The position numbers and the translations under genes are program-made. From Candidatus Heimdallarchaeota archaeon (GTDB lineage Archaea; Asgardarchaeota; Heimdallarchaeia; Hodarchaeales; LC-3), in NCBI GenBank assembly GCA_027364495.1, contig DAHXPE010000545.1:1-8151 (forward strand): a DNA stretch of 8,151 nt, written 5' to 3'. Below are positions 1-8,151 of this stretch, one piece after another; the first letter of the stretch is position 1; each line of letters opens with the position of its first letter. The notes below the pieces were generated by a model that saw only the letters and a list, made by a program, of their open reading frames with translations, searched no databases and was not told the DNA's origin.

Positions 1-611
1 GCTGCATTAGTATGATGAGCAACTGCTTTGGCTAATAATGTTTTTCCTGCTCCAGGTGGACCGTAAAGAAGAACTCCTCGTGGAGGATCAATCCCAATTT
101 CTTTGAAAAGCTCAGGATTAATCAATGGTAATTCAATAGCCTCTTTTAATTCCAGAATTTTATCATTAAGACCGCCTATTTGATCGAATGATAAGTTAGG
201 CCTTAAATCAACTTCCATTTGAGTAATATAAGGATCAGTTTGGTCATGAACTATTTCAATTATTGAATAATTTCTTTGATTAAGAGCTACACTAATACCT
301 GGTTTAAGGTCTTTTGCTTGTAATTCATTGGCATATGATACCAGAAAACTTGGACCGGTGCTTGATTTGACAATTACCTTTTCTTCTTCTTGGAAAACTT
401 CCTCAATTTGTCCAAGAACAAGAGGAACTTTTTTGATTTTCTTAAGTTCCTTAGTAAGCTCAGCTAAAGATTTTTCAAAGTCATATTTTTGTCTTAAAAG
501 TGTTCGACGATTGTTTTGAAGTGCACGAATCTTCTGTTCAAGTACATAAAGTTCAGACGATACATCAGAAGGTTCTGATTTGTCAGGAGAATCTTTTAAA
601 GGTAAAGACAA
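1..611 (-). CDS. Proteasome-activating nucleotidase (PAN)-like AAA+ ATPase, N-terminal part
   Basis: This is the first 203 codons of an ATPase of the PAN / proteasome 26S Rpt family; the rest lies beyond the left edge. PAN forms a hexameric ring that unfolds substrates and feeds them to the archaeal 20S proteasome in the cytoplasm. Visible in order are an N-terminal coiled coil (about residues 18-60), an OB-fold-type segment (about 63-123) containing the family signature VKSSTGPSFLVSY, and the start of the AAA+ domain with the DQIGGL motif (143-148), the PPRGVLLYGPPGAGKT segment and a Walker A lysine at K190. The P-loop reads GPPGAGKT where most PANs have GPPGTGKT, a tolerated change. No ATG precedes the coiled coil in frame. 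The only upstream candidate after the in-frame stop is a TTG at 611-609, with GAGG 12 bases before it, so I use TTG. Walker B, the arginine fingers and the C-terminal HbYX motif cannot be checked, so a Cdc48-independent PAN paralogue remains possible. Confidence 0.9.
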   Translation of the reverse strand, partial: MSLPLKDSPDKSEPSDVSSELYVLEQKIRALQNNRRTLLRQKYDFEKSLAELTKELKKIKKVPLVLGQIEEVFQEEEKVIVKSSTGPSFLVSYANELQAKDLKPGISVALNQRNYSIIEIVHDQTDPYITQMEVDLRPNLSFDQIGGLNDKILELKEAIELPLINPELFKEIGIDPPRGVLLYGPPGAGKTLLAKAVAHHTNA

Positions 612-2910: not shown

Positions 2911-4452
2911 ATGCCCTTTGTCTCTCTTTTTGTTTCCGATAGATTACAATCTAAAAGAAATCTTGATCCCAAAGTTATTTTGACTCCAGAATATAAATTA
3001 ATAATTTCTTGTAATTCCGACAAAAGCCATAAATTCAGCATTTTTCTTATTAACCCATTCAACTACATTATAAATCACTTTTTTTTATCCGGCTCATCAA
3101 TCCTGTCTGTATCAATCACATTTAATGATTTTTTTCCTAGTGGAAGATATTATATCAAAGTAATCGATTTAACGAAAAATTTAGATAGTAAAGATCATAG
3201 CAAACAAATGGATATTGAATTTTATTCATTTCAATTCTTGGGAACATATTCAAATTTTAATTGGTCCTTAACCTATGCAATTAATTGTACTGTTAAACAA
3301 GGTATGGATATACGATTAGCTGTACCGAAGCAATATTTTCCTTTTTTTCTTGTTGAATATCTTGAAGGTAGGCCTAATAATACTTTCACGACAGATTTTT
3401 TTTCAAACTGGTTGGTATTTGATACATCATCAAAAATTGGGATTAATAATATAATGTTTGGATACAGATCCATAGTTAATTGTAATTATTTAATTTTTGG
3501 TCCATCTTCATTATCCAAAGAACCATTATCTGACAATGGAGATCTGAAAAAATATTTAATTTCTGAGCAAGGAATAGAAACTTCTGATACTATTATAAAA
3601 GATTTTGCAAGTGGGATCAATGCAAAAAGTGTTTTTGGTCTAGTACACCAAATTTTATACCTCATCTCAGAACAGATAACTTTTAAGGAACAAGTGGGAG
3701 AATTTGGCGCAAAGTATGCAATTTTAAATAAACAAGGTGATTGTACTGAGTATAGCGCATTATTTACAGCTTTATGCAGAATAAAAAATATACCTTCTCG
3801 ATTAGTAGCCGGATTAAAAAAAATAGGTGTGAGGGAACAAAGCAATTGGATTCGTCATGCTTGGTCAGAAATATTCTATGAAGGACTCTGGATTCCAGTC
3901 GATGTTGTTGAAGGAAAGGCCAAAATATTAGGTTTTCATCCTGACTTGATACCTTTGTTTAAAGGTAATTGGATGGCTGATAATATGAATCGAGAATTAA
4001 AAATCAGTATAATTGATGATTTTAAAGATCAATTAACTACAAATGATCTTGTTGATTCTTATTTAAGTATGGAGCTTTCATACAAAGTAAATAAACAAAT
4101 TCAGAATGGAGTAAATGATGAAAACAAAAGTGTTAATTCTACAAATAAATTAATTAATCTAGAATTAAAACAAGAACTTTTAATAAATTCCGAAGAAGAG
4201 TTAGTTTTGAAATTTGATGAAATAGATAAAAACAGTATATTGGGCGTTTATTTTAAAGTAGAAACAAATCTTGTCGTTAAATCTCCAAAATTAGTGCATT
4301 ATCTTGAACAATTGAAAGAAAAAAAGAATAATGAGTATAAAATCAAGTTAAAATTACCTGAATATCCAGGTAATTATGAAATAGGTATTTTTATATGTTC
4401 TGCGTATGGTGAAATTGTGACCATTAATTCTGTTGATGCTACCATCATTTAA
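2911..4452 (+). CDS. Transglutaminase-like protein with flanking beta-sandwich-like domains (513 aa)
   Basis: The central part (about residues 245-345) is a transglutaminase-like core of the papain-like fold. The catalytic triad is complete: C278 in NKQGDCTEYSALF, H316 in RHAWSEIF and D331 in WIPVDVVEG. Members of this superfamily are cross-linking enzymes, cysteine proteases or peptide N-glycanases, so the reaction (acyl transfer or hydrolysis at a glutamine, peptide or glycan amide) cannot be fixed from sequence. The N-terminal part (1-115) is strand-rich with a SGRYYIKVIDL strand typical of an Ig-like or C2-like sandwich. A polar asparagine/lysine-rich linker (about 390-415) leads to a second strand-rich domain (416-513) ending in a GNYEIGIF strand pair. 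Beta domains around the core recall the layout of animal transglutaminases, but homology of those parts is not established. There is no signal peptide or membrane helix, so a cytosolic enzyme is expected. It starts 15 bases after the zinc-finger gene, without a clear Shine-Dalgarno sequence, so it is probably co-transcribed. Confidence 0.88.
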   Translation: MPFVSLFVSDRLQSKRNLDPKVILTPEYKLIISCNSDKSHKFSIFLINPFNYIINHFFLSGSSILSVSITFNDFFPSGRYYIKVIDLTKNLDSKDHSKQMDIEFYSFQFLGTYSNFNWSLTYAINCTVKQGMDIRLAVPKQYFPFFLVEYLEGRPNNTFTTDFFSNWLVFDTSSKIGINNIMFGYRSIVNCNYLIFGPSSLSKEPLSDNGDLKKYLISEQGIETSDTIIKDFASGINAKSVFGLVHQILYLISEQITFKEQVGEFGAKYAILNKQGDCTEYSALFTALCRIKNIPSRLVAGLKKIGVREQSNWIRHAWSEIFYEGLWIPVDVVEGKAKILGFHPDLIPLFKGNWMADNMNRELKISIIDDFKDQLTTNDLVDSYLSMELSYKVNKQIQNGVNDENKSVNSTNKLINLELKQELLINSEEELVLKFDEIDKNSILGVYFKVETNLVVKSPKLVHYLEQLKEKKNNEYKIKLKLPEYPGNYEIGIFICSAYGEIVTINSVDATII

Positions 4453-4481: not shown

Positions 4482-4502
4482 AAGAAAATTTTAAATTTTC
4501 TT
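4482..4502 (+). repeat. Perfect 10-bp inverted repeat upstream of the zinc-ribbon gene
   Basis: AAGAAAATTT and AAATTTTCTT flank a single T (4492). The palindrome lies 18-39 bases before the ATG at 4521 and includes a TATA-like core (TTTTAAATTTT). Initiation 25 bases from its centre would fall almost exactly on the ATG, predicting a leaderless mRNA. A symmetric sequence overlapping the TATA box could also be an operator for a dimeric repressor. AT-rich palindromes arise easily by chance in this DNA, so the role is inferred. Confidence 0.4.
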
Positions 4503-4520: not shown

Positions 4521-4754
4521 ATGATGGGCAATAATAGTAATATAACGAAAACTAAAAAAACTAAGACTTGTGTATTCTGCAAATATTTTAAGTCTCCTTT
4601 AAAATCTATACAAGAAATCCGACAACTCGTATGTTATAATTGTACAAAAGAAATAGAGGAAAAGAGTTCAAATAAAAATGTTGTTGTTTGGTTGAAGAGT
4701 CTTCTAATTAGTCTTAAAGACATCAAATTTGGTGTATTAGAATGGGTAATGTAA
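4521..4754 (+). CDS. Small zinc-ribbon protein (77 aa) upstream of the HEPN membrane gene
   Basis: The protein has two CxxC knuckles, C17/C20 (CVFC) and C38/C41 (CYNC), separated by 17 residues, the layout of a zinc ribbon. The first 16 residues are basic and polar (lysine/threonine/asparagine). The C-terminal 25 residues (about 52-77, VVVWLKSLLISLKDIKFG then VLEWVM) are hydrophobic and amphipathic, and could lie against a membrane or pack on the next protein. Zinc ribbons of this size often bind nucleic acid or act as adaptors; no specific family is recognised. The start is ATG 4521 (a second ATG follows at once), about 25 bases from a palindromic TATA-like element. The end overlaps the start of the HEPN membrane gene by 13 bases, strong evidence for translational coupling and for a joint function with it. 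Confidence 0.72.
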   Translation: MMGNNSNITKTKKTKTCVFCKYFKSPLKSIQEIRQLVCYNCTKEIEEKSSNKNVVVWLKSLLISLKDIKFGVLEWVM

Positions 4755-6103
4755 CAAGGTTTATAATTGGGTGTTATTTTCCGATTTTGCTTGAGGTTTT
4801 AATTTATGAAACGTATCTCTACCTCAAACCGACAAGACAGCCAGATTTCATGTTATTGATTTACACAATTCCCGTAATTCTACCTTTAATATTTTTTTAC
4901 TTTGTATCACCTTATATAATTTTCAAACTCTCTTCCGCAGGTGAGACATATTCTAATGCACTTGAAAAATCTATTGATGAAATATTTATTTCTGAAAAAA
5001 ATGTTTTAAATCCAAATGAAATAGTAGTCATCAAACAAGAACTTGAATCGACATTAATACCTGAATTAGTGAGAAATTTCAGAAGTGAATATGTCAATAC
5101 TTATTTTAGCCAGTCTCATCCAAATGAAAAAGAAGATTACTCGGTATTAAATTTTTATGAAGAAATTTTTCTATTTTCATTATTTTCGACATTTTTTTCA
5201 TTTATCAATGCTATTATTACGGTTTATTTGCATTTTGATAATTTAATATTTGGTTCATTAAATATAGCAGATAAGATTTATGATATTTTTAACGTTTTAT
5301 TGTTCTTTTTATTGATGACAGGACTTGGAATAACTGGAATATTTCTTCTTGTTTTATTAAGGAGGAGAATAACTATTTATATTTCACTTTTAAATCCAGG
5401 TTGGGTCAATTTTTCAAATGATAAAGAGACTCAGCTATTACAAATAAAAGCTATAAGTGATTTCAATTTTGATGATATCCTAAGTGATCAACTGATAAAT
5501 ACAAGAGGATTCATGACTAATTTATATTTAGAATTGTTAAAAGAGAGAATAAATAAGGTTGTAATCTCAGCAACACGTGAGCAAGTGGGCAAACAATTAA
5601 CTTGGGGTATTTATAGCAACATTTTGACTGAATTGAATATAGAAGAAAAGAAAAAGACTCGTTTAGAGCAATATTTTTTGAGTTCTCCACTTATAAAGAC
5701 TGCACAACAATTTGCGTTCGATAAACGTGAGGCCCATTCCTTACAAGAAGATTTCAGTTATTTTAATTCAACTATTGAGAATTGGGATCAACAAGCAGAT
5801 TCTGAAAAGCTATCAGCCTTCCTTTTGCTGTATCGAAGTGCTGAATCTCTTTTTAGAGGTATATTAAGAAATAAAGGGCTCGATACAGGGAACTTTGGAA
5901 CTATGCTTACAACATTGGCTGAATTAGGGTTATTGAAAAATGAAGAACAAATTATTTTAAATCAGGTAAGGCGACAACGAAATTATATCCTTCATAGAGC
6001 TGGAGAAAAAATTACTATACAAAAAAAGTTTGCTGAGGATTTTATTCACGTAGTCGAAAATATTTTAGTCAGGGCAGACAGTTTAGAAAATGGATCTAAT
6101 TAG
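4742..6103 (+). CDS. Four-helix membrane protein with C-terminal HEPN domain (453 aa)
   Basis: Hydrophobic segments at about residues 7-27, 38-61, 143-164 and 183-206 predict four transmembrane helices, the last followed by the basic RRR stop-transfer stretch (207-209). A charged helical region (65-140) lies between the second and third. The soluble C-terminal half (about 215-453) ends in a helical bundle with the HEPN signature: an SAFLLLYRSAESLFRGIL helix (358-375) and, about 40 residues later, RRQRNYILHR, where R413-N414-x3-H418 matches the Rx4-6H motif with the usual polar residue after arginine. HEPN domains with this motif are commonly metal-independent RNases in toxin-antitoxin, CRISPR and abortive-infection systems, though some are inactive and act as binding modules. 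By the positive-inside rule the HEPN part should be cytoplasmic. It overlaps the zinc-ribbon gene by 13 bases. An integral-membrane HEPN protein is unusual. RNase activity is inferred only from the intact motif; the substrate is unknown. Confidence 0.82.
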   Translation: MGNVTRFIIGCYFPILLEVLIYETYLYLKPTRQPDFMLLIYTIPVILPLIFFYFVSPYIIFKLSSAGETYSNALEKSIDEIFISEKNVLNPNEIVVIKQELESTLIPELVRNFRSEYVNTYFSQSHPNEKEDYSVLNFYEEIFLFSLFSTFFSFINAIITVYLHFDNLIFGSLNIADKIYDIFNVLLFFLLMTGLGITGIFLLVLLRRRITIYISLLNPGWVNFSNDKETQLLQIKAISDFNFDDILSDQLINTRGFMTNLYLELLKERINKVVISATREQVGKQLTWGIYSNILTELNIEEKKKTRLEQYFLSSPLIKTAQQFAFDKREAHSLQEDFSYFNSTIENWDQQADSEKLSAFLLLYRSAESLFRGILRNKGLDTGNFGTMLTTLAELGLLKNEEQIILNQVRRQRNYILHRAGEKITIQKKFAEDFIHVVENILVRADSLENGSN

Positions 6104-6192: not shown

Positions 6193-8151
6193 ATGAATTT
6201 TGAAGAATTTCAAGAAGTTTTTAAAAACAACTATTGGTTTTCAGAGTTTCAAAATGAATTCAAATGTCTAGATAATGAAACATTGGAAAAATTATATAAT
6301 AAAATTAAAGAAAACACAAAAGAAAATGAAAAACTTAAAATAAATGGTCTTTATAGTTTTGCTCTACTCTTATATGGAATAATATATACTGATTGGAAAG
6401 GGTTTCTAAGTCCGAAGTTAATTTATTTAGGAAGTAAAATTTTAGTTTTAATGGGACTGACTCAGGAAGCAAAAAATTTAACCCGTGGATTTGAGTTTGA
6501 TCCAGGATGCTCAGCTTGGAGATTAGCTTCCTATTATAGAAATTCTGATGATTTGAAAAGATCAAAAGAATTTTTAGAGCTTAAAAACCGTGTTCTGAAT
6601 TATTTAGAAACTGGTGGTAATTCTGATGAATTAATTACCAATGACTTAATTACTTGGATAATTGCATCCTTACCTATTCAGGAATGTTTTGAATTTTATG
6701 AGAAAAAGCGATTACAGATAACTAAAATTCTTCCATTAGTAATCCTTTTCGAGAAATTGATTAACAATGATATAAAAAAAGCTACGTTAATTGTCAATGA
6801 AATGAATAAATTTGAAAATCTTACTGAATTTGAAAAAATATTGGCAAACAATAAACGTGCAGTTCTTTTCCAATTGAAGGGAGATCAAAAAGAGGCTTTA
6901 AATTATTTTGAAACAGCCTCAGAGCTAGCGAGTAAACTGAAAGATTATTTTAACCTGAGTAAAATTTCATTTAACAAAGGATCGAGCTATTATTTACTTG
7001 GAGATTATGAATTAAGTTTACTTTCATACCAGCAAGCAGAATCTTCATATAATATGATTCAAGATACTACGGGATTGGGAAAGGTATATAATAGTCTTGC
7101 ATCTATTTATCATGCAATTGGAGAATATACAATTGCTGAAAAATACATAATGCTCACTAAGAAAATTTTTGAAACAACTGAAAATACAGCTATGAAAAAT
7201 GGAATAAATTATAAATATGCCTCAATTTTATATTCTAGAGGGTGTTATCAAAGAGTAAATGAATTGTTATATCCTTTTAGCCCCAAAACTGAGTCTATTC
7301 TCAATTTTGAAATTCAATTATTAAAAATATCAGCTCAATTTGAACTAAATAGGACTTTCGATGAATGTGAAATAGAAAATCTATTGAAAATGTCTGAAAA
7401 GCTTGAATACAATGTTGGTAAAGGTAATTTATATTTTTATTGGGCTAAAATGGTAATATTACAAGGAAATATTATTGAAGGGGAATTGAAATTAAATCTA
7501 GCTTACGAAACTTTTCAACAGGTTAACTTTATCCGTGGAATTATTCTCACATTAAATTTATATGCTTTTATCGAGATGATAAAAGGAAAAATTGAAACTG
7601 CTGAATCATACTGTTCAACATCGTTAATGCATTCGAGAAACTCTCATTTATACTTAGAAGAATTAGAATCAACTATATTACTTAGCAATATATTTTTCAT
7701 AAAAGGTGATACTAGTAAAAGCATTAATCTAATCGATACAGTTCTTTTTTCATTGAATTCAAGACAAATGAAAAATAATCTGTTTCTTCAAGCCTTATTT
7801 CTTAAATCAAGTTTTGAATTACAAGAAGATTCAATTTATCTACCATCACTCCGCGAATTTATGAAGGTAGCAAATAACAGTGGATCATTATATTGGGATC
7901 AACAAAGTCGCTTAGTTGAAGCTCAACAATTTTTATTGGTGCAGGATTATCAAAATGCAATCTCAATAGCTCAAGAGGTCTTTTCAAACTCAGAAAACTT
8001 TGAAATACGAATTTTAGCAAAAAAGATTTATTTTAAAGGTCTAATTGGTTCTTTAACGATCAAAAAACAAAAAGAATCATATGATATTTCTGATTTATGT
8101 TTAAAAATTGAATCTGAATTACAAGTTATAAAGAAAAATTTAATTAAAAAT
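6193..8151 (+). CDS. TPR-repeat protein, N-terminal 653 residues (open at right edge)
   Basis: This frame is open from ATG 6193 to the last base with no stop, so the protein has at least 653 residues. The first 200 residues are helical without clear repeats. From about 217 onward there are tetratricopeptide repeats: roughly 217-250 (FQLKGDQKEALNYFETASEL), 255-292 (YYLLGDYELSLLSYQQAESS) and 295-333 (SLASIYHAIGEYTIAEKY), followed by weaker helical hairpins through the rest, for example around 430-475 and 485-520. TPR arrays form a superhelix that binds peptides or proteins and often serve as the sensor or scaffold of a multi-domain protein. No signal peptide, membrane helix, P-loop or DNA-binding motif is visible; an effector domain could lie beyond the edge. 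The ATG lacks a Shine-Dalgarno sequence. It lies 89 bases after the HEPN gene in the same direction, so co-transcription is possible but a separate promoter is equally likely. Confidence 0.85.
   Translation, partial: MNFEEFQEVFKNNYWFSEFQNEFKCLDNETLEKLYNKIKENTKENEKLKINGLYSFALLLYGIIYTDWKGFLSPKLIYLGSKILVLMGLTQEAKNLTRGFEFDPGCSAWRLASYYRNSDDLKRSKEFLELKNRVLNYLETGGNSDELITNDLITWIIASLPIQECFEFYEKKRLQITKILPLVILFEKLINNDIKKATLIVNEMNKFENLTEFEKILANNKRAVLFQLKGDQKEALNYFETASELASKLKDYFNLSKISFNKGSSYYLLGDYELSLLSYQQAESSYNMIQDTTGLGKVYNSLASIYHAIGEYTIAEKYIMLTKKIFETTENTAMKNGINYKYASILYSRGCYQRVNELLYPFSPKTESILNFEIQLLKISAQFELNRTFDECEIENLLKMSEKLEYNVGKGNLYFYWAKMVILQGNIIEGELKLNLAYETFQQVNFIRGIILTLNLYAFIEMIKGKIETAESYCSTSLMHSRNSHLYLEELESTILLSNIFFIKGDTSKSINLIDTVLFSLNSRQMKNNLFLQALFLKSSFELQEDSIYLPSLREFMKVANNSGSLYWDQQSRLVEAQQFLLVQDYQNAISIAQEVFSNSENFEIRILAKKIYFKGLIGSLTIKKQKESYDISDLCLKIESELQVIKKNLIKN

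Follow-up and report, generated by a model that had tools for sequence, protein, structure and literature searches.

Membrane-anchored HEPN proteins were described in 2013 by Anantharaman et al. (PMC3710099), who distinguished three bacterial groups that join a HEPN domain to transmembrane (TM) helices, the chain of one group also including a zinc ribbon. Two of the groups have one TM, whereas in the third an N-terminal HEPN domain is followed by two TMs, with a zinc ribbon at the C-terminus of the single chain; a HEPN-TM-zinc-ribbon protein occurs in Planctomyces brasiliensis. Control of RNA decay by membrane signals through such proteins was proposed there for bacteria as a poorly appreciated route, and the same paper treats Ire1/KEN and C6orf70 as eukaryotic membrane HEPN ribonucleases (RNases). 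The analysis presented here concerns an 8,151-nucleotide stretch of DNA (contig DAHXPE010000545.1, hereafter the window) in which the open reading frame (ORF) at 4742-6103 probably encodes a membrane-tethered HEPN endoribonuclease that is switched by membrane events. What the analysis itself backs in this reading is the layout as predicted, the model's HEPN fold and the invariance of the active-site residues. An initial annotation had regarded a membrane HEPN protein beside a small zinc protein as a non-standard kind of arrangement; the TM-HEPN groups, with one fused to a zinc ribbon, speak against such novelty. The features of the locus are as follows.

4521..4754, plus strand: small CxxC ORF of 77 amino acids, from the ORF list (cysteines C17, C20, C38 and C41)
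4569..4643, plus strand: CxxC-x17-CxxC stretch of the small protein, read from the translation
4742..4754, plus strand: 13-base overlap of the small CxxC ORF and the HEPN ORF, from the ORF coordinates
4742..6103, plus strand: HEPN ORF (protein P0001, 453 amino acids), four predicted membrane helices and then a C-terminal HEPN domain
4745..4825, plus strand: membrane helix 1, predicted, of marginal hydropathy
4853..4930, plus strand: membrane helix 2, predicted
5156..5236, plus strand: membrane helix 3, predicted, inside the model's helix 130-165
5285..5362, plus strand: membrane helix 4, predicted, at the start of the model's helix 182-217 and followed by RRR (residues 207-209)
5708..6082, plus strand: HEPN domain, residues 323-447, from the predicted structure
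5843..5857, plus strand: E368-x3-R372, the HEPN Ex3[KR] motif, in 18/18 sequences
5978..5995, plus strand: R413-N414-x3-H418, the HEPN Rx4H motif, ending a core helix, in 18/18 sequences

Like the bacterial TM-HEPN proteins, one group of which has a zinc ribbon, P0001 carries a predicted cytoplasmic HEPN domain on membrane helices; unlike them, it has its four predicted TMs at the N-terminus and its HEPN domain at the C-terminus, the CxxC protein being separate. It lacks the WP of the first group (DUF4145 plus one WP-bearing TM) and has four predicted TMs rather than one, its TMs begin at the N-terminus rather than following a globular helical domain as in the second (Abi2/SWT1, one TM), and, in contrast to the third, its HEPN domain is C-terminal and it contains no CxxC. 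The protein is therefore outside all three groups, yet of the same kind. Its likeness to Ire1/KEN and C6orf70, as a membrane-tethered HEPN RNase, is an analogy of arrangement; it is without a single-TM layout, and no kinase is found among the 12 Pfam families that match P0001 or 16 relatives at E <= 1.

The HEPN domain and its predicted membrane anchor

Evidence for the HEPN domain comes from the predicted structure, which shows a four-helix HEPN fold and thereby bears out, at the level of a model, the initial assignment of the C-terminal domain to HEPN. In HEPN RNases the site is described as Rx4-6H, in which the R is usually followed by N, D or H, often together with an acidic residue in Ex3[KR] (PMC3710099). 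The annotated R413-N-x3-H418 signature is present and intact, and the pattern Ex3R...RNx3HRxGE is kept in 18/18 sequences (the window's and 17 relatives, 38 to 88% identical to P0001), so that Rx4-6H with a polar residue after the R, and likewise the acidic residue, which is typical of HEPN proteins but not universal, occur in every one; this count leaves out P0020, P0021 and P0022, N-terminal pieces of 156 to 200 amino acids that lack the HEPN domain. Taken alone the Rx4H motif is weak, because the looser pattern Rx4-6H arises in 49% of shuffles of the HEPN protein (R[NDH]x3H in 2.6%), but its retention in all 18 sequences together with the predicted HEPN fold makes it real. Among five parts of the protein compared, conservation peaks in the HEPN domain.

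From sequence alone, profile searches suggest a HEPN identity without proving it. DUF4145, which belongs to the HEPN clan (PMC3710099), is the most frequent profile match in the family, yet scores below cut-off. In P0001 it matches residues 374-435 at E 0.11, its score of 12.9 bits with the full-length protein, or 15.9 bits with the domain slice, staying short of the 23.1 bits needed for membership. Across P0001 and the 16 relatives, DUF4145 appears in 10/17 and HepT-like in 1/17, while the other ten Pfam families comprise SH2_2 in two members and nine in one member each, DUF3826 among them having the lowest E of all (2e-4). Nine domain slices gave DUF4145 in four, HepT-like in three, HEPN_Cthe2314 in one and four non-HEPN families in one each. 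All of these matches are below cut-offs, as are the PADLOC matches considered further below. One relative bears the source name 'YutE (UPF0331/DUF86 family)'. NCBIfam gave scattered non-HEPN matches only, the viral structure library nothing at E <= 0.001, and PHROGs a match to phrog_27477 (no function given) in 4/9 domain slices, with a best E of 0.0046 and none for the window's slice.

Prediction places the HEPN protein in the membrane and, with less certainty, its HEPN domain on the cytoplasmic side. The hydropathy peaks of helices 2, 3 and 4 exceed 1.6 in every measured sequence of a 17-sequence alignment, whereas helix 1 does so in 3/14; only aligned sequences long enough at each helix were measured, with P0019 to P0022 left out. 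As a prediction, the original description as a four-helix membrane protein holds for helices 2 to 4 in all measured sequences, with helix 1 remaining marginal. Helix 4 is followed by 2 to 4 lysines and arginines, while the loop preceding it has 0 to 2, which favours an inside location of the HEPN domain. Two findings weigh against the proposed reading. The first loop departs from the same K/R rule, and profile searches of the PDB (with the full-length alignment, a second whole-length profile and the domain only) returned only HEPN-unrelated matches at E 0.1 or above, the domain-only profile having a lowest E of 0.099 and no HEPN chain listed.

Searches with the single sequence found 16 relatives at E <= 0.001 and searches with the alignment 20 at E <= 0.01, both scoring just the 7998 candidates with the most shared words; the closest relatives are 86-88% identical, and the 13 full-length relatives in the 17-sequence alignment align across their whole length. 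No relative was seen in 84,980 species genomes, where pattern scans, which may miss diverged members, matched 38 stretches with the single protein and 40 with the alignment. The absence points to a rare family, or to one that resides in lineages outside the species collection. Viral contigs gave no match to the family and plasmids and phages none at E <= 1, nor did the whole window have a megablast match among phages. No description of a four-TM archaeal HEPN family turned up in searches of open-licence PMC papers, as judged by titles and the beginnings of abstracts.

The small CxxC protein and alternative explanations

The two ORFs and their 13-base overlap are present as first annotated, the HEPN ORF starting inside the small one. 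The latter has its own ATG, 68 bases past the stop of the upstream gene (ending at 4452), and is preceded by a TATA-like AT-rich stretch at about 4484-4499 (read by eye); the two proteins are probably made from one transcript. Small genes placed first and overlapping occur in many toxin-antitoxin operons, and the locus might accordingly be read as a two-gene system with the membrane HEPN RNase as toxin and the 77-residue zinc protein as antitoxin or adaptor. The HEPN-TM-zinc-ribbon protein of P. brasiliensis (PMC3710099) would also be in keeping with such a pairing. However, the window has two further pairs of same-strand ORFs with a shared stretch, of 8 bases in each case (706-879/872-1309, on the minus strand and assuming a TTG start, and 2358-2516/2509-2895), so the 13-base overlap is not distinctive and was rejected as the sign of a special pair.

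The small protein itself has the two CxxC knuckles ascribed to it (C17-x2-C20-x17-C38-x2-C41). Its four cysteines are beyond chance, since none of 200,000 random 77-mers drawn with the amino-acid composition of the window contained two CxxC pairs, and from these cysteines it may bind zinc. Codon usage falls short of proving that the ORF is coding. Its codon score is -0.043 per codon, versus 0.027 to 0.113 in six other genes, and tops that of the other five frames over the same stretch; 632 open 40-codon wrong-frame windows had a mean of -0.064 and a maximum of 0.118. In a search of 5.8 billion proteins it found only itself (E up to 10), though relatives of the HEPN protein reach 86-88% identity. 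It has no match in viral contigs, no profile reaching cut-off and none in PADLOC at E <= 0.1. In a simulation with evenly spread changes, orthologues of at least 70% identity shared at least three 5-letter words in at least 97% of cases; a 77-residue gene kept beside the 86-88% HEPN relatives and evolving at a normal rate should therefore have shown, unless the contig ends there, the small gene was left uncalled, or it evolves fast.

The self-only match is moderate evidence only, because the full P0001 is also missing from the search results, which hold just its 156-residue piece (P0022), the database being incomplete for this population. P0022 comes from the N-terminus and matches P0001 with 100% identity along 34% of the query; its longest contig measures 851 bases. 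Judged from these protein searches, a conserved zinc/HEPN gene pair is not supported, and neither is the idea of the small protein as a stable partner, with itself alone found as against 16 relatives of the HEPN protein with the single sequence and 20 with the alignment. The toxin-antitoxin explanation is for these reasons unlikely. The initial annotation had named, as telling against its own reading, homologues in which R413 and H418 vary freely and the zinc-ribbon gene is absent. Only half of this is borne out: both residues are invariant (18/18), while the protein search showed no relatives of the zinc protein.

The domain could instead be a non-catalytic HEPN at the membrane, a helical module that binds RNA or protein and serves, for instance, as a scaffold. 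Binding of RNA or nucleic acid has been proposed for some HEPN families that lack the motif (PMC3710099), and RNase activity of the window protein is read from sequence and model; yet a scaffold would not need the motif positions E, K/R, R, polar residue and H that are kept in 18/18 sequences, making this explanation quite improbable.

Many HEPN-MNT toxins are among the top structure matches of the model, and PADLOC PDC-M05B models weakly match up to 5/17 family members (best E 0.0044), PDC-M05 being a system in which a nucleotidyltransferase is combined with a HEPN-domain protein (PMC12988326). The window protein nevertheless differs from HepT of the HEPN-MNT systems (PDB 8xdj, 7ae6, 6m6w, 5yep) by its predicted membrane anchor, and the tyrosine of RX4HXY, which is the residue modified by MntA (PMC7641770), is A in 14/18 and S in 4/18 of the window protein and relatives. 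That it is a HEPN-MNT (HepT/MntA) toxin-antitoxin member with acquired membrane helices is very improbable, and HEPN-MNT class I membership was rejected, with the tyrosine replaced in 18/18 and no MNT nucleotidyltransferase among the nine window ORFs scanned with Pfam.

Genomic setting and proposed mechanism

Directly upstream on the same strand lies a transglutaminase-like protein of 513 residues (2911-4452, plus strand; Transglut_core, E 6.8e-15), and 89 bases 3' of the HEPN gene a long TPR protein (6193-8151, plus strand) that runs off the window and is a possible further partner. The second small overlapping pair on the plus strand consists of a 52-residue ORF (2358-2516) and a 128-residue protein (2509-2895, from the ATG at its first position). 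The latter carries several CxxC pairs and weakly resembles IBR, RING and FYVE domains; its IBR match (E 2e-4), scored on the longer ORF 2422-2895, reaches 21.8 of the 24.3 bits set as cut-off. On the minus strand, a small cysteine-bearing ORF (706-879) overlaps a 145-residue ORF (872-1309), neither having a Pfam match at E <= 1. A fragment of an archaeal-type proteasome-activating nucleotidase (3-611, minus strand; TIGR01242, E 3e-64) reaches 217 of the 500 bits set as cut-off, the shortfall being probably due to truncation of the ORF at the window edge; from this fragment, the one clue to the organism seen in the window, the host looks like an archaeon.

HEPN RNases act as dimers, and for a membrane-tethered HEPN endoribonuclease we infer the cytoplasmic location, RNase activity, control through dimerization, signal and RNA target as follows. 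The C-terminal HEPN domain would be held at the inner membrane face by the four membrane helices together with two more helical segments, and a signal arising at the membrane or within it would probably alter the pairing of HEPN domains. The Rx4H residues of the re-paired domains would then cut RNA, metal-free, near the membrane, so that translation is slowed or membrane-bound or viral RNA is removed. The small CxxC protein encoded upstream could dampen or target the RNase, though such a partnership is a guess. A bolder version, possible but doubtful, is an archaeal membrane-to-RNA stress pathway in which a four-helix sensor of membrane or surface stress, or of virus, would directly activate its own cytoplasmic HEPN RNase in an Ire1-like, kinase-independent arrangement, with a fast-evolving zinc protein as local regulator.

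In summary, the family represents a further TM-HEPN architecture, apparently archaeal, with a strongly constrained active site. If active, it would allow RNA cleavage under membrane control to be tested in a simple system outside eukaryotes.
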